From positions 186,001-250,000 of the forward strand of contig NZ_QJTI01000002.1 of assembly GCF_003217325.1 (NCBI RefSeq): a stretch of 64,000 bases of DNA, read 5' to 3'. Below are positions 4,531 through 61,267 of this stretch, one piece after another. The translations under genes and the position numbers were made by a program. Numbering within the stretch: position 1 is the first letter of the stretch; each line of letters opens with the position of its first letter. The notes under the pieces were generated by a model. That model did no database searches. It was not told where the DNA came from and saw only the letters and a program-made list of their open reading frames with translations. The stretch comes from Rhodopseudomonas faecalis. GTDB taxonomy: Bacteria > Pseudomonadota > Alphaproteobacteria > Rhizobiales > Xanthobacteraceae.

Positions 4531-5763
4531 TCAGTCGGCGCTGGCTCGTTCCCATTGCGGGAACGGGTCTGGCAGATGGGCATAGGCGGCCGGATCGAAC
4601 GCTTCCTCGCTATCCGCAATCAGGCATTTCTCCAGCATGGCGGTGATGCGGGCGCGGTTCATCATGCCCAGCATGCCGATGAAAACGATCTCCTGGCGGC
4701 GGTCGCCATAGATCGGGTCGAACTTGGCGAGAACCTTGGCGCGCACGCCGGCATCGACCGGCCAGCGGGCAGGCGGCACCACCACCCACCAATGCCCAAG
4801 CGCACGGACGGAAGCCAACGCGCCAGCGATGCTGAATTCGCCGGCCCAGTTCGGGCGGGTCGCCAGCCAGAAATGACCCTTGGCGCGGATCACGCCCGGT
4901 AGCGGCGTCTGCAGGAATTCGTTGAACAACTCAGGCTGCAGCGGCCGGCGTGCCCGCCAGACAAAGCTGGTCACGCCATACTCGGCATCCTCAGGCACAT
5001 GATCGGCGAAGCCATACAGTTCCTTGAACCACATCGGGTGCTGATGTGCGCGTTGGAAATCGAACAGCCCGGTGTCGAACAATTGTGATGGATCGACGCG
5101 GCCATGGTCGGTTTCGATCAGCCGGGCATCGGGGTTGAGCGCGTGGATAATGGCGCGGGCGGCGTCGCGTTGCTGCGTGGTGGCGTCCGAGACCTTGTTC
5201 ATCACGATGATGTCGGCAAATTCGATCTGCTCGACCAGCAGATTCACCAGCGTGCGGTTATCATCTTCTCCGGCGGTCTCGCCGCGGTTCGAGAGAAAGT
5301 CGGTGGACGAGTAGTCCTTGAGCAGATTGACGGTGTCGACCACCGTCACCATTGCATCGAGACGAGCGACGTCTGACAGGCTGAGGCCGGTTTCCTCGCG
5401 GAATTCGAAAGTTGCGGCGACCGGCAGCGGCTCGGACACGCCGGTGCTTTCAATCAACAGGTAGTCGAAGCGGTTTTCCTCGGCGAGACGGCGCACTTCA
5501 ATCAGCAGGTCATCGCGCAAGGTGCAGCAGATGCAGCCATTGGTGAGCTCGATCAGCTTCTCCTCAGAGCGGCTGAGCGTGGTCTCCTCGCGTACCAGAT
5601 CGGCATCGATATTGACCTCGCTCATGTCGTTGACGATTACCGCGACCCGGCGGCCCTCGCGATTGTTCAGCACATGATTGAGGAGGGTGGTTTTTCCGGC
5701 TCCGAGGAAACCCGACAGCACCGTCACCGGGAGGCGAGGCACAGAATCCTGACTGTTCGACAC
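4531..5763 (-). CDS. CobW/G3E-family metal-chaperone GTPase, probably Zur-controlled
   Basis: A 410-residue G3E GTPase of the COG0523 group. The N-terminal GTPase domain has the Walker A motif GFLGAGKTT (residues 18-26), the metal-binding CxCC motif GCICC (Cys77, 79 and 80), an ESTGVSEP motif and a guanine-specificity motif MNKVS. The C-terminal CobW_C domain follows (about 260-400). Such proteins insert or allocate zinc (or cobalt) to client enzymes, especially during zinc limitation. The start is a GTG at 5763; no ATG is available near it. A 24-base palindrome matching the Zur operator lies 11-34 bases upstream of the start, so zinc-starvation induction is likely. The gene is monocistronic and convergent with ccmH. 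The client protein cannot be told from the sequence. Confidence 0.93.
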
Positions 5764-5773
5764 TTACATCACC

Positions 5774-5797
5774 AATGTAATGTTATAACATCACATT
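5774..5797. promoter_or_regulatory. Zur box (zinc uptake regulator operator)
   Basis: A 24-base inverted repeat centred between 5785 and 5786 with the core TGTTATAACA; of its 12 base pairs only one (5779/5792) is mismatched. It fits the Zur operator known from alphaproteobacteria (core ATGTTATAACAT, flanked by A/T-rich arms) and lies directly upstream of the GTG of the CobW-family gene. Such sites are repressed by zinc-loaded Zur. The match is by eye. Confidence 0.82.
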
Positions 5798-6017
5798 AAA
5801 TAGTATCAGGAGGTCGGTCGAGGGTCAAATTCCTTTCGGTGCGCCAGCACCGGCTGGCGCCACGCACGATTGGCCGCTGACGGCTGGGGGCGGGCGAGAT
5901 GGCGAGCGGCAACAACAACACGTTCGCGGCCGGGCCTTTGATGGGCACCCGGCCGCCGACAATCACTTACGCCTGGCGGCTCCACCGCAGCTTCGCCGCG
6001 GGGCCGTTCCCGGCCTG

Positions 6018-25660: not shown

Positions 25661-25720
25661 ATGCTGGATCGGACGTTTGCCGTCGCGCCGATGATCGACT
25701 GGATTGCGTCCGCGGAATAA
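25661..25720 (+). pseudogene. dusA: 5' fragment of dusA interrupted by the prophage
   Basis: The ATG at 25661 (AGGA 5 bases upstream) opens with MLDRTFAVAPMIDW, the characteristic N-terminus of tRNA-dihydrouridine synthase A (FMN-dependent reduction of uridine in the tRNA D-loop), normally followed by TDRHCR and some 300 more residues. Here the frame becomes IASAE and stops at 25720. An in-frame TAG at 25652 excludes an upstream start. The rest of dusA must lie beyond the right end of the prophage, outside the window. dusA is an established attachment gene for prophages and genomic islands, so this is read as the attL side of an integration; phages of this type usually restore a full gene at the other end. 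Confidence 0.85.
25681..25712. other. Probable attL core within dusA
   Basis: The identity to dusA is kept through the codons for VAPMIDW (to about 25712) and lost afterwards, so the strand exchange lies in this stretch. The exact core cannot be fixed without the attR copy. Confidence 0.65.
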
Positions 25721-25723
25721 GCC

Positions 25724-25759
25724 AAAAAAAACAGAGCCTTGCCGGGGGCTTGGCTCTGT
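25724..25759 (-). terminator. Intrinsic terminator of the leftward early operon
   Basis: Perfect 8-base-pair stem ACAGAGCC/GGCTCTGT (25731-25738 with 25752-25759) with eight consecutive A on the + strand (25724-25731), i.e. a U-run after the hairpin for leftward transcription. It lies 33 bases past the stop of the PrtN-like gene and just inside attL, so it ends prophage transcription before the host DNA. Confidence 0.88.
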
Positions 25760-25791
25760 TTGTACTAAGTACATGTGCTGGCACCGGGCGT

Positions 25792-26055
25792 TTACGGGCG
25801 CGTCATCTGCTCAAGCTCCTTTGCCGCAGCAGCCCGCCGGGCATCCAGATAGGCGGCGAGGTCTTGGAGGTGCACGCCGCGGGCGGCCTTCTGGCTCCCC
25901 TCGATCCGCATCAGCGGCAGCTTGATCTCGCCGCGGCACATCTTGCGGACCAGCTGCTCCAATTGCAGGTGCGGGAAGTAGTCGGCCTGCACAATTTCGA
26001 TCGGGATCACGGCCCGGCCGGCGTATTGCGCCATGAGCAGGAATGCGGTGTTCAT
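25792..26055 (-). CDS. Pyocin activator PrtN-family protein
   Basis: An 87-residue protein matching PrtN over its length (MNTAFLLMAQY.GRAVIP, YFPHL..EQLVRKM..GEI.LPLMRIE.SQKAARGVHL.DLAAYLDARR). In Pseudomonas PrtN activates pyocin genes; in Rhizobiales prophages PrtN-like proteins are often found at an early-operon end. The ATG at 26055 has AAAGGAG about 9 bases upstream, and its first base pairs overlap the stop of the preceding gene (ATGA). It is the last gene of the leftward operon. A role as a late-gene or induction regulator is inferred from PrtN only. Confidence 0.85.
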   Translation of the reverse strand: MNTAFLLMAQYAGRAVIPIEIVQADYFPHLQLEQLVRKMCRGEIKLPLMRIEGSQKAARGVHLQDLAAYLDARRAAAAKELEQMTRP

Positions 26056-26258
26056 CGGCTCGGCTCCTTTTGCGGATGTGCCGGCGCAAGGATCGCGTCG
26101 GCGATTTCGAGGCAGAATTCGTTGGCGGCGTCGGCCGGGTGGATATACCCGGCCGCCTCGCACCCCTTCTCAATGATGTCGCCGGCCGGCTTGCCGTTGG
26201 TCTCATCTGCGCCGCCGGCCTCAATCGCGGCGATGATCTGGTTCAGGGGTTGGCTCAT
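26052..26258 (-). CDS. Phage protein of unknown function
   Basis: A 68-residue acidic, helical protein (MSQPLNQIIAAIEAGG, ANEFCLEIADAIL) that I do not assign to a family. Start at the ATG at 26258 with AAGGAAG upstream; its stop overlaps the start of the PrtN-like gene by 4 bases, so both are translated together. Confidence 0.7.
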   Translation of the reverse strand: MSQPLNQIIAAIEAGGADETNGKPAGDIIEKGCEAAGYIHPADAANEFCLEIADAILAPAHPQKEPSR

Positions 26259-26268
26259 TCTTCTTCCT

Positions 26269-26883
26269 TCATTTCGCTTCCTGGCTGTCGATGTTGGCGC
26301 GGATCGTTCGGAACGTGATCGCCACAACCTCGGGATTGGCGGCCCAAGCCTCGGGGCCGTAGAGGCTGCTCCATAGGTCGCGAAATTCTTCGGCTGGCGA
26401 TGGGTCCCACTCGTCCGGGAATTCCGAGTTTGCCCCCAACGTGCCGCGGCATCCTTCCGCAACGGCATCAGCCTCGCTGATATCCTGCAGCCGCTCGATC
26501 TGGACTCCGGTGACGATCAGCGTGAGGCGCGACGCCCAGCGCGGCATGTGGATGGAAGGGCGCCAGCGATACCCCACCTCCTCGATCGTCTCGGGGATAC
26601 AGTCGAAACCATATATCTTAGCGCATTCCGGATAGTCAGCCTTGGTTACGAGCCACGGCGGATCAACCGTTCCGACCTGCGCAAAAGCCTCTTTAACCCA
26701 CAACCGATCGCCGGGCTTCAAAGCCTGCCATGGCGTTGGCTTTTCAAAGCAGTCTTTTGGGTCAGTGAGTACGCCTCGCTGGCGGTTGTTTTTCCCCCAC
26801 GCGAGCTGCCGCGCCTGCGTCTTGCGGCCATCGAGCGCCGCTAGGATCATCGGTGCAGGAAAACGGATCGACCTGTCCGCCAT
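26269..26883 (-). CDS. Phage protein, ASCH-like fold suspected
   Basis: A 204-residue protein of a widespread phage group, with the conserved blocks PMILAALDGRKTQAR, KPGDRLWVKEAF, RWRPSIHMPRWASRLTLIV and RLQDISEADAVAEG, followed by FRDLWSSLYG. The start-to-middle pattern (a short beta strand, then GxKTxxxR, then a GD.LWV turn) resembles ASCH/PUA-type RNA- or nucleotide-binding domains, but this is a by-eye comparison. Starts at the ATG at 26883, sharing one base with the stop of the DUF5131 gene. The two genes are often neighbours in phages. Confidence 0.75.
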   Translation of the reverse strand: MADRSIRFPAPMILAALDGRKTQARQLAWGKNNRQRGVLTDPKDCFEKPTPWQALKPGDRLWVKEAFAQVGTVDPPWLVTKADYPECAKIYGFDCIPETIEEVGYRWRPSIHMPRWASRLTLIVTGVQIERLQDISEADAVAEGCRGTLGANSEFPDEWDPSPAEEFRDLWSSLYGPEAWAANPEVVAITFRTIRANIDSQEAK

Positions 26884-28013
26884 CACTGCGCCCCCGGCGT
26901 GCCGTTGTGTAGGATGCCGTCAAGCAAGCGGCCCGCGGCGCGCTTGCCGAGGCGGTAGACGCTCGTTTGGTCGCCATGGCTCCATCCCCCATCGCGATCT
27001 CTTTCGGCCCACGGGCAGCGCGCCCAGCCCGGCAGAATGGCGTCTTCCGGCGACTGGTCTTCCGGCACCCATTCGCCCCACCGTTTAAACAGGAACGGGA
27101 TGCCGACCGCAGCGCATTGGTCACGGAGGCCGCGCGCCCAATCGGGGTGCAGCGGCCGAGCCTTCGGCCCGCTTTCGCCGCCGCAAATCACCCAATCCAC
27201 GCCGCGATCGAACGGATCATCAACCCCGTGTACCGGATGCACATTCGTTTTCCCGGTGAGCGCATCGAAGGTACACTTCGGGTCGTTCTCGCTGCGCAGC
27301 CGGCCGCGCAAAAGCATCGGCAAAAGATCAATGTCGGTGAGATCAATCGGCCCCAGCAGCGGCACAGCGCTGACAAAACGCACAGCTGCCGGCGTCGCCA
27401 GAAGGTTCGGAATGTGCTCGTTTGCGCGCTGCTGATCCTCAACCGCTACTCCGAGCCGAAGGTTCGGAAGCGGCCACGCCATGAGCGTCACGTCGTCAGG
27501 TTCTTCTGGGTTTGGGCCGACGCTGGTAACCGGCCAATCGTCGGCCATCATCCGCGACGGCGAGATGATGCTCGCGATCACCATGTCCAAGATAGAGCGC
27601 GCGATGCGCCCCGGCGTTGCAGGGTCAGAAACCCACGCCCTCATCTTCTCGCTACGCCTTGTCGAGAGCTCAAACGTATGCTGCGGCGCCAGCGTCATCG
27701 CGGCGAACACGAGATCACGCCAAGCGTCGGGGACGCTTTCGTTGAACAGGTCGCTATGGGGACAAACCAAGATGCTGCGGGGCCGCCGCCATCGCATAGG
27801 CTGAAGCAACGTCCCCTTGTTGAGTTTCACCGAGCCGGACCACGCTGGGCCGGCGTCCGTCATGTTGACGAAGCCAGTGCGCAACAGACGTTTCAGCGCT
27901 GGCGTCTCCCTCAGCCCCATCGCGCAATCATCGCAGCCCGAGGAGACCGCCGAGCAGCCGCTGATCGGCTGCCAAGCTTGGTTGGTTCTTTTGATCTGGT
28001 GTTCATTCCTCAT
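26883..28013 (-). CDS. Phage Gp37/Gp68-family (DUF5131) protein
   Basis: A 376-residue protein with the hallmark N-terminus AWQPISGCSAVSSGCDDCAM, a cysteine cluster (GC..VS.GC..C) followed by phage Gp37/Gp68-family blocks (ILVCPHSDLFNESVPDAW, LPNLRLGVAVEDQ, VPLLGPID, DWVICGGESGPKARPLHPDWARGLRDQC, PFLFKRWGEW). The family is structurally related to radical-SAM-like barrels but its reaction is unknown; here the third cysteine spacing differs from the classical CxxxCxxC. It overlaps its upstream neighbour by 4 bases. Confidence 0.85.
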   Translation of the reverse strand: MRNEHQIKRTNQAWQPISGCSAVSSGCDDCAMGLRETPALKRLLRTGFVNMTDAGPAWSGSVKLNKGTLLQPMRWRRPRSILVCPHSDLFNESVPDAWRDLVFAAMTLAPQHTFELSTRRSEKMRAWVSDPATPGRIARSILDMVIASIISPSRMMADDWPVTSVGPNPEEPDDVTLMAWPLPNLRLGVAVEDQQRANEHIPNLLATPAAVRFVSAVPLLGPIDLTDIDLLPMLLRGRLRSENDPKCTFDALTGKTNVHPVHGVDDPFDRGVDWVICGGESGPKARPLHPDWARGLRDQCAAVGIPFLFKRWGEWVPEDQSPEDAILPGWARCPWAERDRDGGWSHGDQTSVYRLGKRAAGRLLDGILHNGTPGAQ

Positions 28014-30204: not shown

Positions 30205-30651
30205 CTAGAAGGGGATGTCGTCATCCATCGGGATGTTCTGGCTCGGCGCGCGGCCGGCGCTGCGGGGTGTCCCGCTGTCGCCCCCGCCATCGCCCCCGCC
30301 GCTGCCGCCGAGCAGGATCAGCTGCGCGTTGAACCCCTTGAGGACGATTTCTGTGGTGTATTTCTCGACGCCGTTCTGATCGGTCCATTTGCGGTGCTCG
30401 ATCGCGCCCTCAACGAGGCATTTAGAGCCCCTGCGCAGATACTGCTCGGCGACGTTGCACAGACCTTCCGTCCAGATCACGACGCGATGCCACTGCGTCT
30501 TCTCTTTCCGCTCGCCTGTATTTTTGTCCCGCCAGCTCTCTGACGTAGCGATCGAGAAGTTGACGACGCGCGAGCCATTTTGCAGCCTTTTGCATTCTGG
30601 ATCGCCGCCCAGGCGACCAATCAAGGTCGCCCGGTTCATATCGCCGGCCAT
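30205..30651 (-). CDS. ssb: Single-stranded DNA-binding protein
   Basis: A 148-residue phage SSB: an OB-fold domain (NRATLIGRLGGDPE, VVNFSIATSESWRDKNTGERKEKTQWHRVVIW, LRRGSKCLVEGAIEHRKW) then a glycine-rich linker and the acidic C-terminal tip DDDIPF used to recruit partner proteins. It protects single-stranded DNA during phage replication and recombination. It belongs to the recombination module with the SbcC-like ATPase, probable annealase and exonuclease genes upstream. Confidence 0.95.
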   Translation of the reverse strand: MAGDMNRATLIGRLGGDPECKRLQNGSRVVNFSIATSESWRDKNTGERKEKTQWHRVVIWTEGLCNVAEQYLRRGSKCLVEGAIEHRKWTDQNGVEKYTTEIVLKGFNAQLILLGGSGGGDGGGDSGTPRSAGRAPSQNIPMDDDIPF

Positions 30652-42572: not shown

Positions 42573-42964
42573 TGTCGCGGCAGCGGGCAAATCGATGGAC
42601 GCCGGCCCGAGCTGCGCGCGCAGCGTATCTTGCCGGCCGCGGCTGGTCTTATGAGCAGATCGCGGATGAGATCGGCGGCATTAGCGGCAAGTGGCTTGGC
42701 GTCAAACTGCGCGCCTGGGGCGCGCGAGCGTCGCGCCGCCGAAAGGGGCTTTGCCTAATCGCGTGCCTGTCGCCAATTGCCACGTCGCGATTGACGATCG
42801 CCGCGAAGGCCCGCGGGGTGCCGCTGGATGATTTAGCGGCCAAGATACTATCAGTCGTCGCCTGCGAGAACCTGACCGACAGCATTCTGGATGATGGGGT
42901 TAAGACTATGCTGGGGCGGGACTTGGCCCCGGCGCCGCGCAAGCACAGGCGCCCGCAGTCATGA
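42572..42964 (+). CDS. Phage helix-turn-helix protein, GcrA-helix-like
   Basis: A 130-residue basic protein starting MSRQRANRWTPARAARAAYLAGRGWSYEQIADEIGGISGKWLGVKLRAWG, a helix-turn-helix similar to the N-terminal domain of GcrA. A second motif, LTIAAKARGVPLDDLAAKILSVVACENL, looks like a ribbon-helix-helix-type helix. Start at 42572 overlaps the stop of the RuvC-like gene (TAATG). Possibly a second DNA-binding regulator of the operon. Confidence 0.78.
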   Translation: MSRQRANRWTPARAARAAYLAGRGWSYEQIADEIGGISGKWLGVKLRAWGARASRRRKGLCLIACLSPIATSRLTIAAKARGVPLDDLAAKILSVVACENLTDSILDDGVKTMLGRDLAPAPRKHRRPQS

Positions 42965-44115
42965 GCAACGACACCGACCCCGCATTCCAGGCATGGGTTG
43001 ATCGCGCCCGCGAGGTCAGCCTTGAGGCGGCTGCGGCGATGGCCGGCGCCAAGCTCAAGCGCAGCGCCCACGAAATGATCGGGCCTTGCCCGAAGTGCCT
43101 CGGCACCGATCGGTTCAGCATCAACGAGGGGAAAGGGCTGTGGAACTGCCGCGGCGCAGAGGGCGGCAACGACAGTATTTCGCTGTTGATGCACGCGGGC
43201 GGATTGCCGTTCCTTGCGGCTTGCGAGCAGCTGACTGGCGAGGCGCCGCCGCGCGACGGCCGGCAGATCGACGCCGATATTGTTCGCGAGCGCAAGGAAG
43301 AACGCCGCGACCGGAAGATCAGCAAGGAGCAGGATGAACAGCGGCGTTCCGATTGGCAGGCGCAGGCGGTATCCGATCTCTGGCGCAAAGCGCTGCCGTT
43401 CGGCGGCAGCTTCGCGGAGGCTTATCTGGCGCGCCGCGGCGTTACGCTGACGCCCGATCAGTGCGAGAACCTGCGTTTCATCCCATCGCTGGAATATCGC
43501 GGCTATGCAGACGAGCAGGCGCAGGCCGAAACGTCGCTCGGTGAATTCCCGGCGATGGTGGCCGCTATGCGCGACCCGGCCGGCGGGATCGTCGCCGTCC
43601 ATCGAACGTATTTGGCGCCGGATCGGCCGGTGAAGCTGGTCCCGCCGGGCGACCGCAACCGCAACAAGGCGAAGAAGGTTTTCGGCAAGGCGCGGGGCTC
43701 GATCATCTGGCTCGGCCGCCCGTGCCCGGTTGTCGCTATTGGCGAGGGCATTGAGACGGCCGGCGCGTGGTATGCGCTCGGCATCGGCCCGGATGAGGTG
43801 ACGATCGCTGCGGCCTATTCCCTCGGGAACATGAGCGGCGGCGCCACCGATACGATGCGCCACCCGACGATTAAGGGGCGGACAATCTACAACGGCATTC
43901 CCGACCAAGATCGGCCGGGGATCATCCTGCCCGATTGGGCCCGCGAAGTGATCCTGCTCGGCGACGGCGATAGCGACGGCCCGACCACCGTTGCGCATCT
44001 TCTGACCGCCGGCCGGCGCTACCGCGCCGCCGGGAAGGCGGTCTCGGTCCACATGGCACCCGAGGGGAGCGATTGGAACGACGTCCTCATGGGATGTATG
44101 GAGGGCGCGGCGTGA
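42961..44115 (+). CDS. Phage DNA primase (zinc-finger plus TOPRIM)
   Basis: A 384-residue primase. The N-terminal zinc finger is CPKCLGTDRFSINEGKGLWNC (Cys43, Cys46, Cys63), followed by a charged linker. The TOPRIM domain is VVAIGEGIETAGAW (EGxE) and VILLGDGDSDGPT (DGDxD). P4-alpha-like primases have the same organisation. It should make RNA primers for phage replication and pairs with the downstream ATPase. The ATG overlaps the preceding stop by 4 bases. Confidence 0.9.
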   Translation: MSNDTDPAFQAWVDRAREVSLEAAAAMAGAKLKRSAHEMIGPCPKCLGTDRFSINEGKGLWNCRGAEGGNDSISLLMHAGGLPFLAACEQLTGEAPPRDGRQIDADIVRERKEERRDRKISKEQDEQRRSDWQAQAVSDLWRKALPFGGSFAEAYLARRGVTLTPDQCENLRFIPSLEYRGYADEQAQAETSLGEFPAMVAAMRDPAGGIVAVHRTYLAPDRPVKLVPPGDRNRNKAKKVFGKARGSIIWLGRPCPVVAIGEGIETAGAWYALGIGPDEVTIAAAYSLGNMSGGATDTMRHPTIKGRTIYNGIPDQDRPGIILPDWAREVILLGDGDSDGPTTVAHLLTAGRRYRAAGKAVSVHMAPEGSDWNDVLMGCMEGAA

Positions 44116-45416
44116 CCAATATGCCCGCGATCCAATCGTTTGAGGATTTCGAGGCAGCGGCGCTCGAAATCTGCCGCCCGAAGCTCAAGAGCCGCTTTGG
44201 AGCGCTCGCTTGGGAGGACTTGGATCAGCCCGGCCCGGAGCATGAATACTTAATCGATGACTTTTTGACGATCGGCGACAAGTCCATCATCGGCGGCCCT
44301 AGCCGGTCCGGCAAATCGTTCCTTGCAATTGATGCGGGCATGTCGATCGCCCGCGGTGTACCGTTCTTTCAGCGCGATACGGTGCAGGGATTGGTTATCT
44401 ATCAGGCTGGCGAGGGCGCGAGGGGCGTCAAGAAGAGGCTGCGCGCCTATCGCAAGCACCACAACATCTCATCTGGGACCCGCGTTCCGTTCGTGCTCCT
44501 GCAGTCGAAAATCGACCTCTATTCGGCGGATGGGGACACCACGCCGCTGATCGAAGAATGCAAAGCTATCGCGGACATGTACGACGTGCCGCTGCGCGCC
44601 CTATTTATCGACACTTTGGCGACTGCGACTGCCGGCGCCGATGAGAACAGCGGAAAGGACATGGGCGCCGTCATGGCGAACATCGATCGCATCGTCCAGG
44701 CGCTGCCGGGCACGCACGTAGCGCTCGTCCATCACCTGAACGCCGCAGGCACCAAGCTGCGCGGGCATTCATCGATCTTCGCGAACATCGACCAGGTCAT
44801 AATTGTGACCCGCGACGAAGAAACGAACATTCGAACAGCGACCCTCGACAAGCAAAAGGACGATGAGGACGGCGTTCGTATCCGCTTCAGGCTGAGAAAA
44901 GTTGAGATCGGGGTGCGGCCGAATGGGAAGCCGCTGACGTCCTGCGTTGTGCAGCCGCTCGGCGGGGAGGCCGATATCAAGCCCGGCGGCGAGAAAAAGG
45001 ATCAGGGCGTCCGCCTGAACGCCGATGAGAACATTGTCTTCCGCGCGCTGCTTCAAGCGCTCCAAGCGCACGGTGAACGGCCCGCCGGCCACGCATCGAT
45101 CCCAGAGACGTCAATCGCTGTGCGTGCCTCGCATTGGAAGGCCGCATATCAGGCGATCGACCCGGCGGCATCCGACGATGACGACGAGAAAACGATCACC
45201 GATCGCGTCAATAAGGCGCTCAAGAGCGGCGGCGCGAAGCTGATGCAATACGGCGTCATTAAGCGCGACAACCCGTTCGTCTGGCTGACAGGAAAGCCGG
45301 TTCGCGGATTTGAGCGCGCTGTGGCTGCGTTCGAACTGCCCCGCCCGCCGCTATCAGGCGGCGACACGTCATGGGCGGACGGCCTCGACCAAGAGATCAA
45401 CGGGAGTGACTTGTGA
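44112..45416 (+). CDS. RepA-like AAA ATPase/helicase
   Basis: A 434-residue RecA-fold ATPase of the RepA/AAA_25 type: Walker A GGPSRSGKS in IIGGPSRSGKSFLAIDAGMSIARG, Walker B in RALFIDTLATAT, sensor stretch HVALVHHLNAAG, followed by VIIVTRDEETNIRTATLDKQKD. It likely acts as the replicative helicase for the primase encoded just upstream. The GTG at 44112 overlaps the primase stop by 4 bases and has GGAGG about 6 bases upstream; an ATG at 44121 is also possible. Confidence 0.9.
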   Translation: MTNMPAIQSFEDFEAAALEICRPKLKSRFGALAWEDLDQPGPEHEYLIDDFLTIGDKSIIGGPSRSGKSFLAIDAGMSIARGVPFFQRDTVQGLVIYQAGEGARGVKKRLRAYRKHHNISSGTRVPFVLLQSKIDLYSADGDTTPLIEECKAIADMYDVPLRALFIDTLATATAGADENSGKDMGAVMANIDRIVQALPGTHVALVHHLNAAGTKLRGHSSIFANIDQVIIVTRDEETNIRTATLDKQKDDEDGVRIRFRLRKVEIGVRPNGKPLTSCVVQPLGGEADIKPGGEKKDQGVRLNADENIVFRALLQALQAHGERPAGHASIPETSIAVRASHWKAAYQAIDPAASDDDDEKTITDRVNKALKSGGAKLMQYGVIKRDNPFVWLTGKPVRGFERAVAAFELPRPPLSGGDTSWADGLDQEINGSDL

Positions 45417-54085: not shown

Positions 54086-54595
54086 ATGTCGAGCCAGCAG
54101 GAAGCGCCGCAAGCCGGCATGATTACCACTGAGCAGGCGGGCCGCTTGCTGATGGTAACAGGCGAGCGCGTCCGGCAACTAATCAAGTCGGGATATGTGC
54201 CACGACCTGTCAAGGGCGTGATCCCGTTAGTTGCTGCCGTTCAAGGATACATCAAGTTCCTTAAGGACGAAGATCGCCGGTCGAGCAAATCGGCCGCAGA
54301 TAGCCGCGTGCGCGATGCGCGCGCAAAAGAAATTGAGCTCAAGATCGCGCGGCAACAGCGCGAACTACTCCCAACAGAGGAGGCGGTCGCCCTGTGTAAC
54401 CGCGTGGTCGGCTTGCTGATCTCGCGCGTCGCGGGCTTGCCCGCCGAATTCACGCGAGATTTGAATGAGCGTCGCCGGCTGGAAGGCTCCATTGACGCAA
54501 TCCGCGTCGAAGTGGCCGATCTCATTCGAGAATATCGTCTCTCCCTGCCTGTCGTTGGAAACGATCATCCGGCCGGCGGCGAGGGTAACGCCTGA
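54086..54595 (+). CDS. Terminase small subunit (Nu1-like)
   Basis: A 169-residue small terminase. The N-terminal helix-turn-helix (ITTEQAGRLLMVTGERVRQLIKSGYVPRP) recognises phage DNA; the middle (SVRDARAKEIELKIARQQRELLPTEEAVAL) is a coiled coil for oligomerisation, and the C-terminal helix (RRRLEGSIDAIRVEVADLIREYR) binds the large subunit. The ATG at 54086 is used; no good ribosome binding site is visible. Upstream of the large terminase gene, overlap 41 bases. Confidence 0.9.
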   Translation: MSSQQEAPQAGMITTEQAGRLLMVTGERVRQLIKSGYVPRPVKGVIPLVAAVQGYIKFLKDEDRRSSKSAADSRVRDARAKEIELKIARQQRELLPTEEAVALCNRVVGLLISRVAGLPAEFTRDLNERRRLEGSIDAIRVEVADLIREYRLSLPVVGNDHPAGGEGNA

Positions 54596-56477
54596 CGTTT
54601 GGGGTACCCAACGCATCTATCCGCCGACTGCCGGTGTGCCGGGGCGCCGCGATCCTCACCTAACGCCATACACGGTGGCGTTCGGCCGGGCCGCGATGAT
54701 CGGCGCAGCAAAGCGCGCGGTGCTCGTCTGTGGCGCGCAGATGGGCAAAACCGATACCGAGCTCGACCTGATCGGCTGCAAGCTGGACACCCAGCCGGCG
54801 CCGATCCTGTATGCCGGGCCGTCGCTCGACTTTATCCGGGACCAGTTCGAGCCGCGGTTGAACGAACTGTTTGACCAATCCGCGACGCTGTCACTCAAGG
54901 TCACGCGCGGCAAATCGAACAGGAAGACGCGCAAACTAGTTGCCGGCGTGCCGGTGCGCCTTGCGCATGCTGGATCATCGACCGCCCTAAAGTCGGACCC
55001 GGCGGCGCTCGCCATCGTGGACGAGTACGACGAAATGCTTGCGAACGTCCGCAAGCAAGGCGACCCGCTCGGGCTAATTGAGGCCCGAGGCCACACATAC
55101 GCGGATTTCGTCGCGGTTGTTTCCTCGACACCCTCCGTCGGGGCCGTTGAAACGGAGATCGACCAAAAGTCCGGCCTTGAATTTTGGAAGGTCGCCGCCG
55201 CCACTGATCTGTTCTCGCCTATCTGGCGCCTCTGGCAGGAGGGCACGCGCTATCATTGGACGTGGCGCTGCCCGCATTGCGGCGGCTGGTTCATCCCTCG
55301 ATTGAAGCTGTTGCGGTGGCCGAAGAATGCGACGCCAGCCGAAGCGCTGCGCTCGGCGTACATCGCCGCGCCGTGCTGCGGGGGTGTCGTAGAGGAACGC
55401 CATAAGGCTGCGCTGAATGCGCAGGGCATCTATGTCGCCCCGGGGCAAACGATCAACGACCTTGGGGAAGTTGAAGGCGCCCCGCCGGAAAGCTCCACGG
55501 TGTCGTTTTGGGTGTCCGGGCTCTGCTCGCCATTCAGAACGATCGGCCAGCGCGCTGAGGCTTATCTCCAAGCGCTGGCGAGCGGCGAGAACCCGAAAAT
55601 TCAGACGGCGGTCAACGCCGACTTCGGCGAGTTGTGGACGCCAACCGGCGCCGACACCCCGGATTGGGCAGAGGTTGCGGCGCTTCGGCTGCCGTATCAG
55701 GCCGGCGACGTGCCGGATGGCGTTGTGTTTCTGACGGCCGGCATCGACGTTGGTGCTCGCCGGCTGCACTACGTCATTCGCGGTTGGGGTTCGCGACAGG
55801 AAAGCTGGCTCATTGAGCATGGCGTCCTGTGGGGCGACACGCACTTGCCGCACGTCTGGGACGATCTGGCCGGGTTGCTTGCAAACAACTACGGCGGGCT
55901 AACTATCCGTAAGGCGTTTGTAGATGCCGGCTTCCGGCCTGGGCGAAAAGACAACGTGCCTGTGCACATGGTCTATGAGTTCTGTCGGAAGCATCAGCGC
56001 ATCGCTCTGCCGTCGAAAGGGTACGACCATCGTGACGCGCCCGTTTCGCTGAGCCGTATCGAAGTAGTCCCGAGCGGCAAAAAGGCGAAGTACGGGCTCG
56101 ATCTCGCGTTGCTCGATACGGACATGCTCAAGTCATTTGTGCATGGACGCATTCTTTGGGATGCGGCCTCGCCGGGGGGCTGGCACATCCCGGAAGATGC
56201 GACGGACGAATATTGCAAGCAGGTAGTAGCGGAAAGCCGCGTGCCGAAGCCGAAAGGCGGCTTCATGTGGGTTCGGACCGGGGAGAACCATTACCTCGAT
56301 TGTGAGGCGATGGCCTACGGCGCGGCGTATCTGCTCCGCGTGTTCATGCTCAGGGATGGCGCGAAGCGGCCGAAGCCGCCCGCGCCGCCGCCTAAACCAA
56401 CCAGCGCAACCATCCCAGCCGCAGCGCCCCCGCGGGGCTTGGCCGGGCTTGCGCGCCTCAACCAGATGGGACGCTAA
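54555..56477 (+). CDS. Terminase large subunit (lambda gpA type)
   Basis: A 640-residue packaging motor and nuclease. Walker A is CGAQMGKT (residues 59-66), Walker B is in ALAIVDEYDE, and a zinc-ribbon-like pair follows (CPHCGGW and CCGG). The nuclease domain is in the C-terminal half (GVVFLTAGIDVGARRLHYVIRGWG, then KAFVDAGFRPGRKD). The gpA family cuts concatemers at cos sites. The TTG at 54555 is chosen because the ATG at 54465 would overlap terS by 131 bases. Confidence 0.9.
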   Translation: METIIRPAARVTPDVWGTQRIYPPTAGVPGRRDPHLTPYTVAFGRAAMIGAAKRAVLVCGAQMGKTDTELDLIGCKLDTQPAPILYAGPSLDFIRDQFEPRLNELFDQSATLSLKVTRGKSNRKTRKLVAGVPVRLAHAGSSTALKSDPAALAIVDEYDEMLANVRKQGDPLGLIEARGHTYADFVAVVSSTPSVGAVETEIDQKSGLEFWKVAAATDLFSPIWRLWQEGTRYHWTWRCPHCGGWFIPRLKLLRWPKNATPAEALRSAYIAAPCCGGVVEERHKAALNAQGIYVAPGQTINDLGEVEGAPPESSTVSFWVSGLCSPFRTIGQRAEAYLQALASGENPKIQTAVNADFGELWTPTGADTPDWAEVAALRLPYQAGDVPDGVVFLTAGIDVGARRLHYVIRGWGSRQESWLIEHGVLWGDTHLPHVWDDLAGLLANNYGGLTIRKAFVDAGFRPGRKDNVPVHMVYEFCRKHQRIALPSKGYDHRDAPVSLSRIEVVPSGKKAKYGLDLALLDTDMLKSFVHGRILWDAASPGGWHIPEDATDEYCKQVVAESRVPKPKGGFMWVRTGENHYLDCEAMAYGAAYLLRVFMLRDGAKRPKPPAPPPKPTSATIPAAAPPRGLAGLARLNQMGR

Positions 56478-56478
56478 C

Positions 56479-56721
56479 ATGGCGACGCCTGAACAAATCG
56501 CGCTTTGGCGGCAGCAGCTCGCCGAAGCTGAGGCGGCGTATCACGAGGCTCGAATGAGCGGGTCCGTCAACCGCATCCGCCACGGTGACAAGGAGGTTCA
56601 AACAGGCCGCGTCTCGCTTAGTGAGCTTGCCGGCTACATCGCGGAGCTTCGGGGCAAGTTGGCCGAGGCAGGCGTGAATGTCGGCGGCGGTCGCGGCAAA
56701 GCGCGGCGGGTGGTGTTCTGA
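56479..56721 (+). CDS. gpW-family head-tail joining protein
   Basis: An 80-residue protein matching gpW: MATPEQIALWRQQLAEAEAAYHEARMSGSVNRIRHGDKEVQTGRVSLSELAGYIAELRGKL. GpW plugs the portal and allows tail attachment. The gene lies 1 base after the large terminase stop and shares one base with the portal start, the lambda order (A-W-B). Confidence 0.92.
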   Translation: MATPEQIALWRQQLAEAEAAYHEARMSGSVNRIRHGDKEVQTGRVSLSELAGYIAELRGKLAEAGVNVGGGRGKARRVVF

Positions 56722-58346
56722 TGTCCAGCAAAGCTACCGCTCTGTTCGACCAGTATGGCGACCCGATCCGGAGCGTTGGCAACCGTGGTCGCGTCATGGC
56801 TGGCGGCTTCCGCGGCGCGTCGTATTCCGACCCCGACCTCGCCGCCTGGACACCGAACCTGTACTCGGCCCATGCCGCGTACATGGGGGACCGGAACCCG
56901 CTGGCGGCCCGCGTCCACGATCTTGTCCGCAACGACGGATGGACGGCGGGCGGCGTTACGCGCGTTGTTGACACGATCATCGGCGCCCAATTTCGGCTGA
57001 CGTCGAAGCCGATCGCGCGCGTCCTTGGCATTGACGACGATGCCGCGGACGAGCTTGCCAACAACATCGAGGCCGAGTTCTCGATGTGGGCTGACGACCC
57101 CGACTGCTATTGCGACGCCGGGCGTCGGAACAGCTTCACCGGCAATCTAGGGCTCATGTTTCGACACCGCCTTGTGGATGGCGAGGCGCTGGCAAAGATC
57201 GAATGGCTACCCGGGCGCGGCGGCATTTATTCGACCGCGGTCAAGGTGATCGACCCGGATCGGCTGTCCAACCCGCACAACCAGATCGACACCGTATCGC
57301 TGCGCATGGGTATCGCGCTGGGCGCGCACGAGGAGCCGATCGGCTATCACATCCGCATGGCGCATCCCGGCGATGCCGGGGTCTACAATCCGAACATCTG
57401 GCGGTGGGAGTATTTCGCGCGCGAGACGACATTCGGCCGCCGGATGATGGTGCATGCGTTTGAGGCGGAGCGGGCCGGGCAGGTTCGCGGCATCTCGGTG
57501 CTTGCGCCGATCATCAAGAAGCTTCGGATGCTCGGCCGCTACGACGAGGCCGAATTGCAGGCAGCGGTTATCAACGCCGTCATGGCGGCGATCGTTGAGA
57601 GCCCGTTCGACCACGAGCAGTTTGCAGCCGCGCTCGCTGGCGGCGACGAGCTGTCGTCGTATCAGACGCAGCGCCTCGGCTATTACGACGCCTCACCGAT
57701 CAACCTCGGCGGCGCAAAGATGGCGTTCGCCTTCCCGGGCGAGAAGGTGACGCTGACGAAGCCGAGCCACCCGAACAGTGTGTTCGAGCACTTCGTTCGA
57801 GCAAGCCTGCGCAATGTCGCGTCGGCGCTCGGCATGTCCTACGAGCAGCTGTCCATGGATTGGGGGCAGGTCAACTACTCGTCCGCCCGTGCCGCCCTGC
57901 TTGAAGTGTGGCGCGGCTACACCGCGCGGCGCGGTCACTTCGTCGCCCAGGCTGTCCAACCGATCTATGCGGCATGGTTGGAGGAGGCGATCGACAAGGG
58001 GCGCGTCAAGCTCCCTTCCGGCGCGCCTGACTTCTATGCGGCGAAGGCGGCCTACTGCGCCGCGCGGTGGATCGGCCCCGGCCGCGGCTGGGTTGATCCG
58101 CTCAAGGAAGCGCAGGCGTCTGCGTTCCGCATCGCGAGCGGGCTGTCCACGCTTGAGCGGGAAACCGCCGAAGCGGCGGGCGAGGATTATCTCGAAAACC
58201 TTCGGCAGACCGCACGCGAGCGCAAGGAGATCGCTTCGCTCGGGATGGACTGGAAGCAGTTCCGATCGCAACCCGGCGGCGCGGCGCCGCCGGCTGACGA
58301 CGACGAAGAACCGCGGCCGAAGAAGAAGCGAAAGGAGCCGGCATGA
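56721..58346 (+). CDS. Portal protein (lambda gpB family)
   Basis: A 541-residue portal protein, the dodecameric ring through which DNA enters the head. Typical blocks: NPLAARVHDLVRNDGWTAGGVTRVVDTIIGAQFRLTSKP, LMFRHRLVDGEALAKIEWLPGRGG, RVIDPDRLSNP-like KVIDPDRLSNPHNQIDTVSLR, GRRMMVHAFEAERAGQVRGIS, LGMSYEQLSMDWGQVNYSSARAALLE, SAFRIASGLSTLERETAEAAGEDYLENLRQ. Length normal. Its stop overlaps the protease start by 4 bases. Confidence 0.94.
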   Translation: MSSKATALFDQYGDPIRSVGNRGRVMAGGFRGASYSDPDLAAWTPNLYSAHAAYMGDRNPLAARVHDLVRNDGWTAGGVTRVVDTIIGAQFRLTSKPIARVLGIDDDAADELANNIEAEFSMWADDPDCYCDAGRRNSFTGNLGLMFRHRLVDGEALAKIEWLPGRGGIYSTAVKVIDPDRLSNPHNQIDTVSLRMGIALGAHEEPIGYHIRMAHPGDAGVYNPNIWRWEYFARETTFGRRMMVHAFEAERAGQVRGISVLAPIIKKLRMLGRYDEAELQAAVINAVMAAIVESPFDHEQFAAALAGGDELSSYQTQRLGYYDASPINLGGAKMAFAFPGEKVTLTKPSHPNSVFEHFVRASLRNVASALGMSYEQLSMDWGQVNYSSARAALLEVWRGYTARRGHFVAQAVQPIYAAWLEEAIDKGRVKLPSGAPDFYAAKAAYCAARWIGPGRGWVDPLKEAQASAFRIASGLSTLERETAEAAGEDYLENLRQTARERKEIASLGMDWKQFRSQPGGAAPPADDDEEPRPKKKRKEPA

Positions 58347-59272
58347 ATGGGCTGGTCTATCCCGAGATTGCCACACGCATTTTCGGCACACCGCTGATGA
58401 TGCACCCGGGCAAGGCGGCCTCGATCCTGTCGGCGATCGGCGGACGCCTTGTTGACGGCGGGCTCGAATTCGAGGGCGCGGTTCCGATCGCGCACGTCGC
58501 ATTCGAGCGCGGGCGGCCGAGCGCCGCGCGCATCTCGGATCGCATGGGGCGTTACTACGACGCCAACAAGATCGACACGCTCGATCGCGTCGGCAATGTC
58601 GCCGTGATCGGCATCGAAGGGACGCTCGTTCACAAGGGCGCGTTCATCGGGATGTCGTCGGGGCGGACGAGCTACCAGGGGCTACAGACGCAGATCAAGC
58701 GTGCTGCCCTGGACAAGTCGATCGCTGGTGTCGTGTTCGAGGTTGATAGCTTCGGCGGCGAGGTCGCCGGGGCATTCGAGACGGCCTCGATGATCGCCGA
58801 GCTAGGGCAGATCAAGCCGACGATCGCGATTTTGACCGACCACGCACTCTCGGCTGGATACCTGCTCGCCAGCGCGGCGAAGCAAGTCATCATGCCGCCG
58901 CACGGCCGCGCCGGATCGATCGGCGTCATCACCCTTCACGCGGACTATTCGGCCGCGCTGGCAAAGAACGGGGTTCGCGTCACGATCCTCGCAGCCGGCG
59001 AGCATAAGGCCGATGGCAACCCGTATGAGCCGCTCCCGAAGGAAACCGCGGACCGCATCCGCGGGGGTCTGGGGAAAGCCCGGCAGAGCTTTGCCGAGCA
59101 CGTTGGTCGCTTCCGCGGCAGCCGTTTGACTGCGGCGGCGGCGCTGGCGACCGAGGCTCAGGATTATGACGGCAGCGATGCCGTTGCCCTGGGTCTCGCC
59201 GACGCTGTTGGCAATGCCAACGCTGCGTTCAGCAGCTTCATCGCGGCCGTCAACAAGCGCCGCCACCACTGA
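58343..59272 (+). CDS. S49-family prohead protease (lambda gpC-like)
   Basis: A 309-residue serine protease of the SppA/S49 type that cuts the scaffold during head maturation. The catalytic serine is Ser170 in DHALSAGYLLAS and the lysine is Lys222 in HKADGNPYEPLP; the 52-residue spacing equals that of lambda gpC (Ser166/Lys218). Flanking blocks GVVFEVDSFGGEVAGAFE and RAGSIGVITLHADYS are also conserved. The ATG overlaps the portal stop by 4 bases. Lambda Nu3 scaffold is encoded inside gpC; here the scaffold-like part is the separate next gene. Confidence 0.94.
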   Translation: MNGLVYPEIATRIFGTPLMMHPGKAASILSAIGGRLVDGGLEFEGAVPIAHVAFERGRPSAARISDRMGRYYDANKIDTLDRVGNVAVIGIEGTLVHKGAFIGMSSGRTSYQGLQTQIKRAALDKSIAGVVFEVDSFGGEVAGAFETASMIAELGQIKPTIAILTDHALSAGYLLASAAKQVIMPPHGRAGSIGVITLHADYSAALAKNGVRVTILAAGEHKADGNPYEPLPKETADRIRGGLGKARQSFAEHVGRFRGSRLTAAAALATEAQDYDGSDAVALGLADAVGNANAAFSSFIAAVNKRRHH

Positions 59273-60244: not shown

Positions 60245-61267
60245 ATGCCCGAAATTCTCGACGTCTTCGCTGGCGACGCTTTCAGCTTTATGTCGCTGAC
60301 CGCCAGCATCAACAAAATCCCGTTCGTCCCTGGCCGCCTTGGCAGCTTCGGGCTGTTCAACGAAATCCCCGTCCCGACGACGAAGATCGCAATCGAGGAA
60401 GTCGCTGGGCAGCTGAGCCTCGTTGCGCCGTCGCCGCGTGGCGGCCCCGGCGAGACCCGGCCGAAGCTGGGCCGCAACGCCCGCACGCTGAACGTGCCGC
60501 ACTACCAGCTCGATGACAACATTCTCGCCGATGAGGTGCAGAACGTTCGCGAGGCCGGCCTCAATATGGGCATGCGGACTGTTGACACCTACCTGTCCGG
60601 GCGGATGAGCCTGTTCACCGCGAACCTCGACGCTACCCTTGAGCACCAGCGTGTTGGCGCAATCAAGGGGCTGATCCTCGATCGCGATGGCAACACGATC
60701 TATGACCTGTTCAGCGAGTTCGGCGTCCAGGCCGAGGCCCCGGTCAATTTCGCACTGACCACCGGGACCACGAAGGTTCGCAGTAAGTGCACGCAGGTCG
60801 TTCGCACGTTGGCGAAGAACCTCGGCGGCGTGGGCTTCAATGGCGTGATCGGTATGGCCGGCGATGACTTTTGGGACACGCTGATCGACCATGACGAGGT
60901 TCGCGAAACCTACAAATATCAGGAGGGGCGGGCGCTTCGTGACGGCGTTGCGTTCCAGACGCTGAATTACGGCGGCATCACGTTCGAGAACTACAAGGGA
61001 TGGGTTGGCGGCTTCGATGGCTCGCCGGTCGTGCCGTTCATCGAGCCGAACGAATGCCGCTTCTTCCCGGTTGGGGTCCCGAACCTGTTTCAAACCTATT
61101 TTGCGCCGGCCGACTACCAAGAGACGGTCAACACCCTCGGGTTGCCCCGCTATGCAAAGTCGATCCCGTCTGACAACGGCAAATCGACCCGGTTGGAGAT
61201 GCAGACCAACCCGCTGTCGATCTGCACGCGCCCGCGCGTGCTCATGCGGGGCAAGGCAAGCGCCTGA
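60245..61267 (+). CDS. Major capsid protein (lambda gpE-like)
   Basis: A 340-residue HK97-fold capsid protein of the gpE family. Typical blocks: FSFMSLTASINKIPFVPGRLGSFGLFNEIPVPTTKIAIEE, LNVPHYQLDDNILADEVQNVREAG, ATLEHQRVGAIKGLILDRDG, NYKGWVGGFDG, CRFFPVGVPNLFQTYFAPADYQETVNTLGLPRYAKSIP. The ATG at 60245 lies 12 bases after a terminator-like hairpin. Confidence 0.95.
   Translation: MPEILDVFAGDAFSFMSLTASINKIPFVPGRLGSFGLFNEIPVPTTKIAIEEVAGQLSLVAPSPRGGPGETRPKLGRNARTLNVPHYQLDDNILADEVQNVREAGLNMGMRTVDTYLSGRMSLFTANLDATLEHQRVGAIKGLILDRDGNTIYDLFSEFGVQAEAPVNFALTTGTTKVRSKCTQVVRTLAKNLGGVGFNGVIGMAGDDFWDTLIDHDEVRETYKYQEGRALRDGVAFQTLNYGGITFENYKGWVGGFDGSPVVPFIEPNECRFFPVGVPNLFQTYFAPADYQETVNTLGLPRYAKSIPSDNGKSTRLEMQTNPLSICTRPRVLMRGKASA

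Follow-up and report, generated by a model that had tools for sequence, protein, structure and literature searches.

A prophage in dusA of Rhodopseudomonas faecalis and candidate arm-type sites of dusA-specific integrases

Integrative elements of the DAI family are described as targeting the 5′ end of dusA, with 21-bp semiconserved repeats at both ends, an integrase gene next to dusA and a new dusA 5′ end that comes from the element; a PrtN-like gene was reported in 60/94 of the islands, and 48/94 were prophages (Farrugia et al. 2015, PMC4482086). For Vibrio dusA elements, RdfN (PF11112) is described as the directionality factor that is needed for excision, and in the elements related to IMEVchUSA3 the promoter and the DusA N-terminus are supplied by the element, with int and rdfN lying across attP (PMC8409611). 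The nearest characterised kin of the DAIs is given as Rci (PMC4482086), and Rci recombinases are said to be without an arm-binding domain (PMC8138268).

The window analysed here is a stretch of 64,000 nucleotides of Rhodopseudomonas faecalis (G000:C2:186001-250000, in a genome of 4.07 Mb and 62 contigs). The element that begins in it resembles the DAI elements in its dusA 5′ target, end repeats, adjacent int, replaced DusA start and PrtN-like gene, and it resembles IMEVchUSA3 in its RdfN with PF11112, its element-derived DusA N-terminus and the placement of int and rdfN across attP. By its sequence it is an ordinary member of the known dusA-specific DAI family; dusA targeting and the replaced DusA start are a known habit, and the prophage itself is ordinary. 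IMEVchUSA3 is, however, described as a mobilizable island under AcaCD control (PMC8409611), whereas this element is a contractile-tailed prophage, and its integrase is predicted to have the arm-binding domain that Rci shufflon recombinases are reported to lack (PMC8138268). Furthermore, the abstract, results and concluding remarks of PMC4482086 describe no arm sites, while the relatives examined here appear to have both an arm-binding domain and paired words on the two arms. Arm sites of attP were not found in the papers searched, and titles and abstract openings, with most subscription journals outside the search, returned no paper linking dusA integrases with arm-type sites. As a whole, the locus is best explained as a dusA prophage of 56,233 bp from core to core, with an RdfN and with arm words in attP that are read by Int, a reading to which we assign a probability of about 0.88.

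Ends, gene content and empty site of the element

The frame at 25661 reads ATG, then M L D R T F A V A P M I D W I A S A E, and ends in TAA at 25718-25720 (Table 1), confirming the preliminary description, which had taken it for a DusA N-terminus followed by a stop. That description had further proposed a prophage in dusA with attL at this place and phage genes after the stub. Both proposals hold, since the 28-bp core recurs exactly at a second place and a related genome has the site empty, and phage genes are present from 25792 on. The attR core lies beyond the window end and would correspond to 81909-81936 in window numbering. The first 27 bases of the core, with at most 3 mismatches, occur at only 2 places in the 4.07-Mb genome (reversed control, 0), and a looser core pattern matched in 26 of the 61 genomes searched, with two copies in this genome and one in each of the other 25.

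Table 1. Features of the element and its left boundary (window positions unless a locus is named)
Feature	Position	Strand	Remark
Orphaned host dusA 5′ end	25661..25720	+	ATG to TAA just past core, 19 codons
attL core, 28 bp, TTTGCCGTCGCGCCGATGATCGACTGGA	25676..25703	+	identical to attR core, G000:C2:267909-267936
Intrinsic terminator, leftward transcription	25724..25761	-	between core and P′ arm, downstream of rdfN
P′ arm TGTACTAAGTACAT, proposed weak Int arm-type site(s)	25761..25774	.	proposed from relatives
rdfN, PrtN/PyocinActivator-family recombination directionality factor, 87 aa	25792..26055	-	PF11112, phrog_1300
Prophage gene, DUF5131	26883..28013	-	PF07505
Prophage single-strand DNA-binding protein	30205..30651	-	phrog_44
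Prophage primase/helicase, two overlapping ORFs	42961..45416	+	phrog_510, phrog_906
Terminase large subunit, GpA type	54465..56477	+	PF05876/PF20454, phrog_15
Portal protein, lambda family	56721..58346	+	PF05136
Head maturation protease	58343..59272	+	phrog_53
Major capsid protein E	60245..61267	+	PF03864
Integrase, tyrosine type	L005:18525-19694	-	PF00589 E 2.7e-16

The second core copy lies inside an intact dusA (PF01207 match at C2:267915-268829) that opens MPDFSENSAKSMIRRFAVAPMIDWTDSRCR, and two other Dus matches occur in the genome, on C17 and, weakly, on C44. A restored dusA with an identical core and a tyrosine recombinase had been anticipated at the right end, and all three are seen on reading past 64000. 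The GC content of the element is 63.5%, against 64.9% in the left flank. Alignment with a sister strain, which had been suggested as a check, finds dusA uninterrupted and the site empty in the same-genus genome G014 (locus L026), where left flank and dusA are contiguous; identity is 81% over 998 columns and then 90% over 72 for the left flank, and 96.7% over 986 for dusA. The G014 gene opens MLDRTFSVAPMIDWTDSR (MLDRTF, then VAPMIDW, translated by eye), which is the start orphaned in the window, and the host start has therefore been cut off and replaced. In its place the restored dusA has a new in-frame 5′ end, MPDFSENSAKSMIRRFAVAPMIDW as against the native MLDRTF of G014. Since the element supplies a dusA start of its own (MPDFSENSAKSMIRR...), the first DusA codons are exchanged on integration and the host start remains behind as an orphan. 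A chance reading frame at 25661 was also considered and was set aside, given the exact repeat of the core and the unoccupied site in G014. An attL, an attR in an intact dusA 56 kb to the right, a DAI-type int, an RdfN-type gene and an empty site are thereby shown at the level of sequence.

A single sigma-70-like match, TTGGTA-17-TACAAT (L005:19741-19769), is found within L005 19650-20000; it lies ahead of the restored dusA and overlaps the arm words described below. Since it does so, one may conjecture that arm-bound Int might also regulate dusA and int.

At the left end, the leftward intrinsic terminator that had been noted after the dusA stub proved real on folding of the minus strand: 25718-25766 folds at -19.6 kcal/mol (z -3.5; 1/200 shuffles as good), with an eight-U run on the 3′ side of which three are paired. 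A consensus terminator scanner with a loop limit of 8 bases reported plus-strand versions of the 25724-25761 hairpin only. When the window and the P′ arms of L172, L179 and L182 were compared by eye, several elements showed a terminator-like hairpin between the core and the P′ sites and others an IHF-like sequence at that place; the two are possibly interchangeable bends. The first phage gene, absent from the earlier predictions, is a PrtN/RdfN excisionase, a small PF11112 protein that adjoins attL and lies across attP from int (PF11112 E 4e-27 and phrog_1300 excisionase E 2.6e-29, both on the longer ORF 25792-26163). The candidate Int arm sites between the core and this gene had not been predicted either. 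NCBIfam gave nothing for RdfN and, for Int, one match far under the cut-off.

Tail sheath and baseplate-like proteins are also encoded between the element ends, and together with the head genes they indicate a contractile-tailed phage; these assignments come from a scan of 20 proteins, out of 74 greedy ORF calls with starts in 25792-80524. An IMG/VR record of 55,863 bases (L231, IMGVR_UViG_2740891854_000002) encodes an integrase 100% identical to that of the present element from residue 14 on; it stops inside int and is therefore without attR and dusA. In 29 of 80 viral-contig integrase loci, the sequence opens directly with the integrase match.

The int gene is divergent from dusA, with 230 bp from its start to DusA residue 21. 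An integrase of the DUF4102 type had been predicted here, and this prediction found no support: Pfam at E ≤0.001 gives PF00589 only, with no N-terminal DUF4102 domain, and the relatives of the enzyme adjoin dusA as in the DAI family. Relatives at E ≤1e-30 occur in 38/397 genomes of the order, and relatives are 31-64% identical. The 75 loci of the genome collection that encode a relative, together with 30 others, form a set of 105 loci that includes the element's own, holds some species twice and is partly redundant. In 93 of the 105, dusA is present in the available flank; it is divergent from int in all 93, and each of them has, on the int side of the core, an open frame with a potential start codon. 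The remaining 12 loci (L048, L052, L053, L087, L110, L129, L130, L131, L133, L134, L139, L140) have no dusA in the flank; some have little flank and some have enough, so that these may use other target genes. The integrases of the Burkholderia phages AH2 and BcepIL02, which both appear among the DAI hits of Farrugia et al. (2015, PMC4482086), are 53% and 45% identical to this Int, respectively.

Repeated words on both sides of the core

Among the 83 usable int-to-core arms (P arms), 57 are nonredundant, and in these GTAC is enriched (88 against 23 expected), as are other words. A repeated 8-mer score of at least 2.9 was reached by 94% of the 83 P arms and by 16% of 249 shuffles. Typically a P arm holds two direct copies of a word, spaced by about 20 bp, together with a third that is inverted; in several betaproteobacterial elements the order is direct, inverted, inverted. 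The word itself differs by lineage: GTACAACA, TTACAACA, GTGCTACA, TTGCTACA, GTACTGCA and GTACAGCA were found, as were GTACGACA, GTCCTACA, GTGCAACA, TTGGTCCA, GTATCACA and more. The int-proximal 60 bp of L116, L118, L121, L122 and L124 show direct, inverted, inverted copies, another geometry for GTGCTACA.

The opposite (P′) arms were reached through rdfN, for which a PF11112 match was present in 24/30 and 22/30 entries (a few species twice). Among 43 genome pairs of an rdfN locus and an int locus, the rdfN-side core was found in 23 (14 + 9). P and P′ arms of own partners share a mean of 12.96 7-mers, against 4.35 with others (0/20,000 permutations); for at least 4 of these 23 pairs, whose arms lie on different contigs, membership of one element is assumed. 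At G415:C275 a second, partial integrase match (5056-5874) adjoins the rdfN used as the attL partner of L055, and this pairing may therefore join two elements.

Free phages offer a contiguous attP, and seven of eight were used (Burkholderia AH2, BcepIL02, DC1 and CSP3, Rhizobium RHph_Y3_1, Pseudomonas Haddon and Marinobacter AS1); the eighth, OQ658365, has dusA beside int. When the 23 pairs and the seven phages were combined, with 19 of the 30 words set by hand, the own word was found in the own P′ arm at 7/8 or better in 25/30 elements, compared to 24% of foreign combinations (0/20,000 permutations); the five that missed were the window's element, L104, L112, L103 and L119. At this level, 41 of the P′ sites were inverted and 2 were direct, with a spacing of 11 or 12 bp between inverted neighbours in 15/16 cases. 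IHF-like sites at 8/9 or better were present in 10/30 P′ arms against 2.4 in shuffles, none of them in the window's element, and are suggestive only.

In the present element GTAC occurs at C2:267697, 267720, 267743 and 267762, and inverted at 267769. Its P arm (C2:267694-267775) holds TTGGTACA, TCGGTACA and a third near copy, and the P′ arm TGTACTAAGTACAT would be a weak, inverted counterpart of TTGGTACA; to the automatically called word it fits only loosely, below 7 of 8. The Int of this element has L17 K19 A21 M23 R30. The same five residues are found in L284, which is at most 62% identical to the first set of integrases analysed below, and its words are TTGGTACA and TTGGAACA.

Integrase residues and the letters of the word

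In phage lambda, attP has arm sites on both sides of the core, on the P and P′ arms. The present system is similar in the N-terminal arm-binding domain, here predicted, and in candidate arm sites on both sides of the core, and it differs in that the arm word varies from lineage to lineage and can be linked to particular residues. The predicted Int model (mean pLDDT 86, pTM 0.68; residues 21-30 lower, mean 75) has an N-terminal three-stranded sheet and a helix as in lambda-type arm-binding domains, with strands at 2-8, 14-24 and 27-35 and the helix at 38-52. Its best PDB match by Foldseek is full-length lambda Int on DNA (1z1b_A; 385 alignment columns, 17% identity, TM 0.51, rmsd 13.9 over all domains), and a profile search of PDB sequences gave two weak matches, chains of IntI4 and XerA. 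In the model, residues 17, 19, 21 and 23 take alternate positions on the second strand, and residue 30 is on the third.

The relation between word positions (p1 onwards) and Int columns was initially analysed in 54 nonredundant integrases, whose words were framed by eye before looking at Int. Residue 23 was the best of 290 columns for p1, residue 30 followed by 21 for p3, and residue 17 for p5 and p6 (287 columns for p6). From 80 viral-contig loci, the 46 that include upstream DNA were then added, along with 8 phages, which left 45 after identity filters; this set was not blind, since arms and residues were on view before the dyad-based caller and residue 19 were settled. An earlier regex caller, which matched the hand words in 43/54, was replaced by the dyad-based caller, which uses DNA only and passed 80 of 99 nonredundant elements at the 95% null level and 74 at the 99% level; of the 19 failures, 11 are betaproteobacterial or from Burkholderia phage. 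The frames set by eye for the window, L039/L042 and L104 later appeared incorrect; L036 and L039 received new frames from the dyad-based caller, L042 is outside the nonredundant set, and L104 is among the failures. In five automatic calls the frame seems to be off by 1-2 bases; they are included in the 80-element analysis and were dropped from the tree test.

Across all 80 elements and 296 Int columns, residue 23 ranked 1 for p1, residues 30 and 21 ranked 1 and 2 for p3, residue 19 ranked 1 for p4, and residue 17 ranked 1 for both p5 and p6; p2 and p7 vary little and single out no contact residue. The 40 added elements alone gave rank 1 to residue 23 for p1, ranks 1 and 2 to residues 21 and 30 for p3, rank 2 to residue 19 for p4, and ranks 4 and 1 to residue 17 for p5 and p6. 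The pairings in the 80 elements are as follows: K23 occurs with G (48/52) and M23 with T (16/18) at p1, R21 with G (22/23) and R30 with A (47/54) at p3, Q19 with C (60/68) at p4, L17 with A (20/23) and T17 with T (21/28) at p5, and H17 or Q17 with G (6/7) at p6. Exceptions are L308, with GTGACA-type words and LQAKR, and L305/L307 as against L225, which share the five residues and differ at word position 4.

Independent pairs were drawn from a catalytic-domain tree of 75 elements. For p1, residue 23 differed in 83% of 18 such pairs and in 11% of control pairs (rank 1 of 357); the control pairs are less distant (median 0.45-0.48, compared to 0.62-0.75), an effect that benefits all columns equally. 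A close natural pair on this tree is L101/L238, at a catalytic-domain distance of 0.16, in which K23 goes with GTGCTACA and M23 with TTGCTACA. Residue 17 ranked 1 for p5 (21 pairs) and p6 (8 pairs), column 368 came first for p3 with residue 30 second and residue 21 fourth (10 pairs), and residue 19 was weak for p4 (7 pairs; rank 16 of 356). The order 23, 21, 19, 17 along word positions 1, 3, 4 and 5-6 is as would fit a sheet laid in the major groove of the DNA, going by the predicted model.

A proposed attP complex and its alternatives

In the circular phage, attP would run int, P arm, phage dusA start, core, stop and terminator, P′ arm, rdfN. The core-binding and catalytic domains of Int would occupy the core, and its N-terminal three-stranded domain would bind 8-bp words on both arms as lambda Int does, the P words being mostly direct, direct, inverted and the P′ words inverted, often two at 11-12 bp. 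Residues 23, 21 (with 30), 19 and 17 would read word positions 1, 3, 4 and 5-6, and RdfN may shift the complex towards excision. We consider it likely, from the covariation of proteins and arms, that these residues specify the arm sites of dusA integrases in this manner, with lineage words matched on both arms and largely readable from the protein, such that elements share the same dusA core and have private arm sites. If this is true, natural protein and DNA pairs from many lineages would allow the site choice of an arm-binding domain to be tested directly, and the arm-site pattern would be of help in delimiting whole attP sites in genomes. Many elements may also be able to share a single crowded target gene in this way, each integrase acting on its own arms.

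The repeated words could instead be operators of RdfN or of a phage repressor, as their position just upstream of int and their overlap with the promoter-like match before the restored dusA might suggest. Operators would not be expected to explain word copies on both sides of the core or a layout resembling the P and P′ arms of lambda, and the covariation with RdfN in the 43 pairs is informative: the best z for an RdfN and an Int column was 2.3 and 18.9 at p1, 6.3 and 14.8 at p3, 4.8 and 8.3 at p4, and 4.0 and 7.5 at p5, Int columns thus outdoing every RdfN column. At p6 the best RdfN column (7.3) covaries about as strongly as Int 17 (6.9), above which Int columns 4 (8.7, the best) and 20 also score, and position 6 alone can therefore not tell Int from RdfN. 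RdfN is the less likely reader of the words because its covariation is weaker at four positions and about equal at one, and we regard operators as a highly improbable explanation of them.

Shared ancestry, by which related integrases would simply lie beside related arms, is more improbable still as the only source of the association, even though the integrase closest in its catalytic domain already gives 0.73 of the six word letters correctly, compared to 0.55 for chance pairs. The five residues predict 0.83, and none of 500 random five-column sets did as well. The other residues of the arm-binding domain come near this when close relatives are allowed (0.80), but with partners above 60% identity barred the five residues give 0.70 against 0.53 for the catalytic domain and 0.57 for the rest of the arm-binding domain. 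Ancestry alone would also not account for the independent pairs, in which residues 23 (p1) and 17 (p5 and p6) lead some 355 columns, or for the way in which the residues occupy alternate positions of one strand and follow the word in order. Finally, the element might be a remnant that is no longer able to excise. Its P′ arm looks weaker than those of its relatives and is without an IHF-like match; the int and rdfN frames are nevertheless open, the two cores do not differ, and the element has head, tail and replication genes, so loss of excision seems rather doubtful to us. The reading that we prefer remains a dusA prophage whose Int reads arm words in attP.

Repeated words beside int were also seen by eye in four distant gammaproteobacterial members, mEp460, YeP1, SMHB1 and Acinetobacter MD-2021a, and in mEp460, YeP1 and SMHB1 they are found on the far side too.
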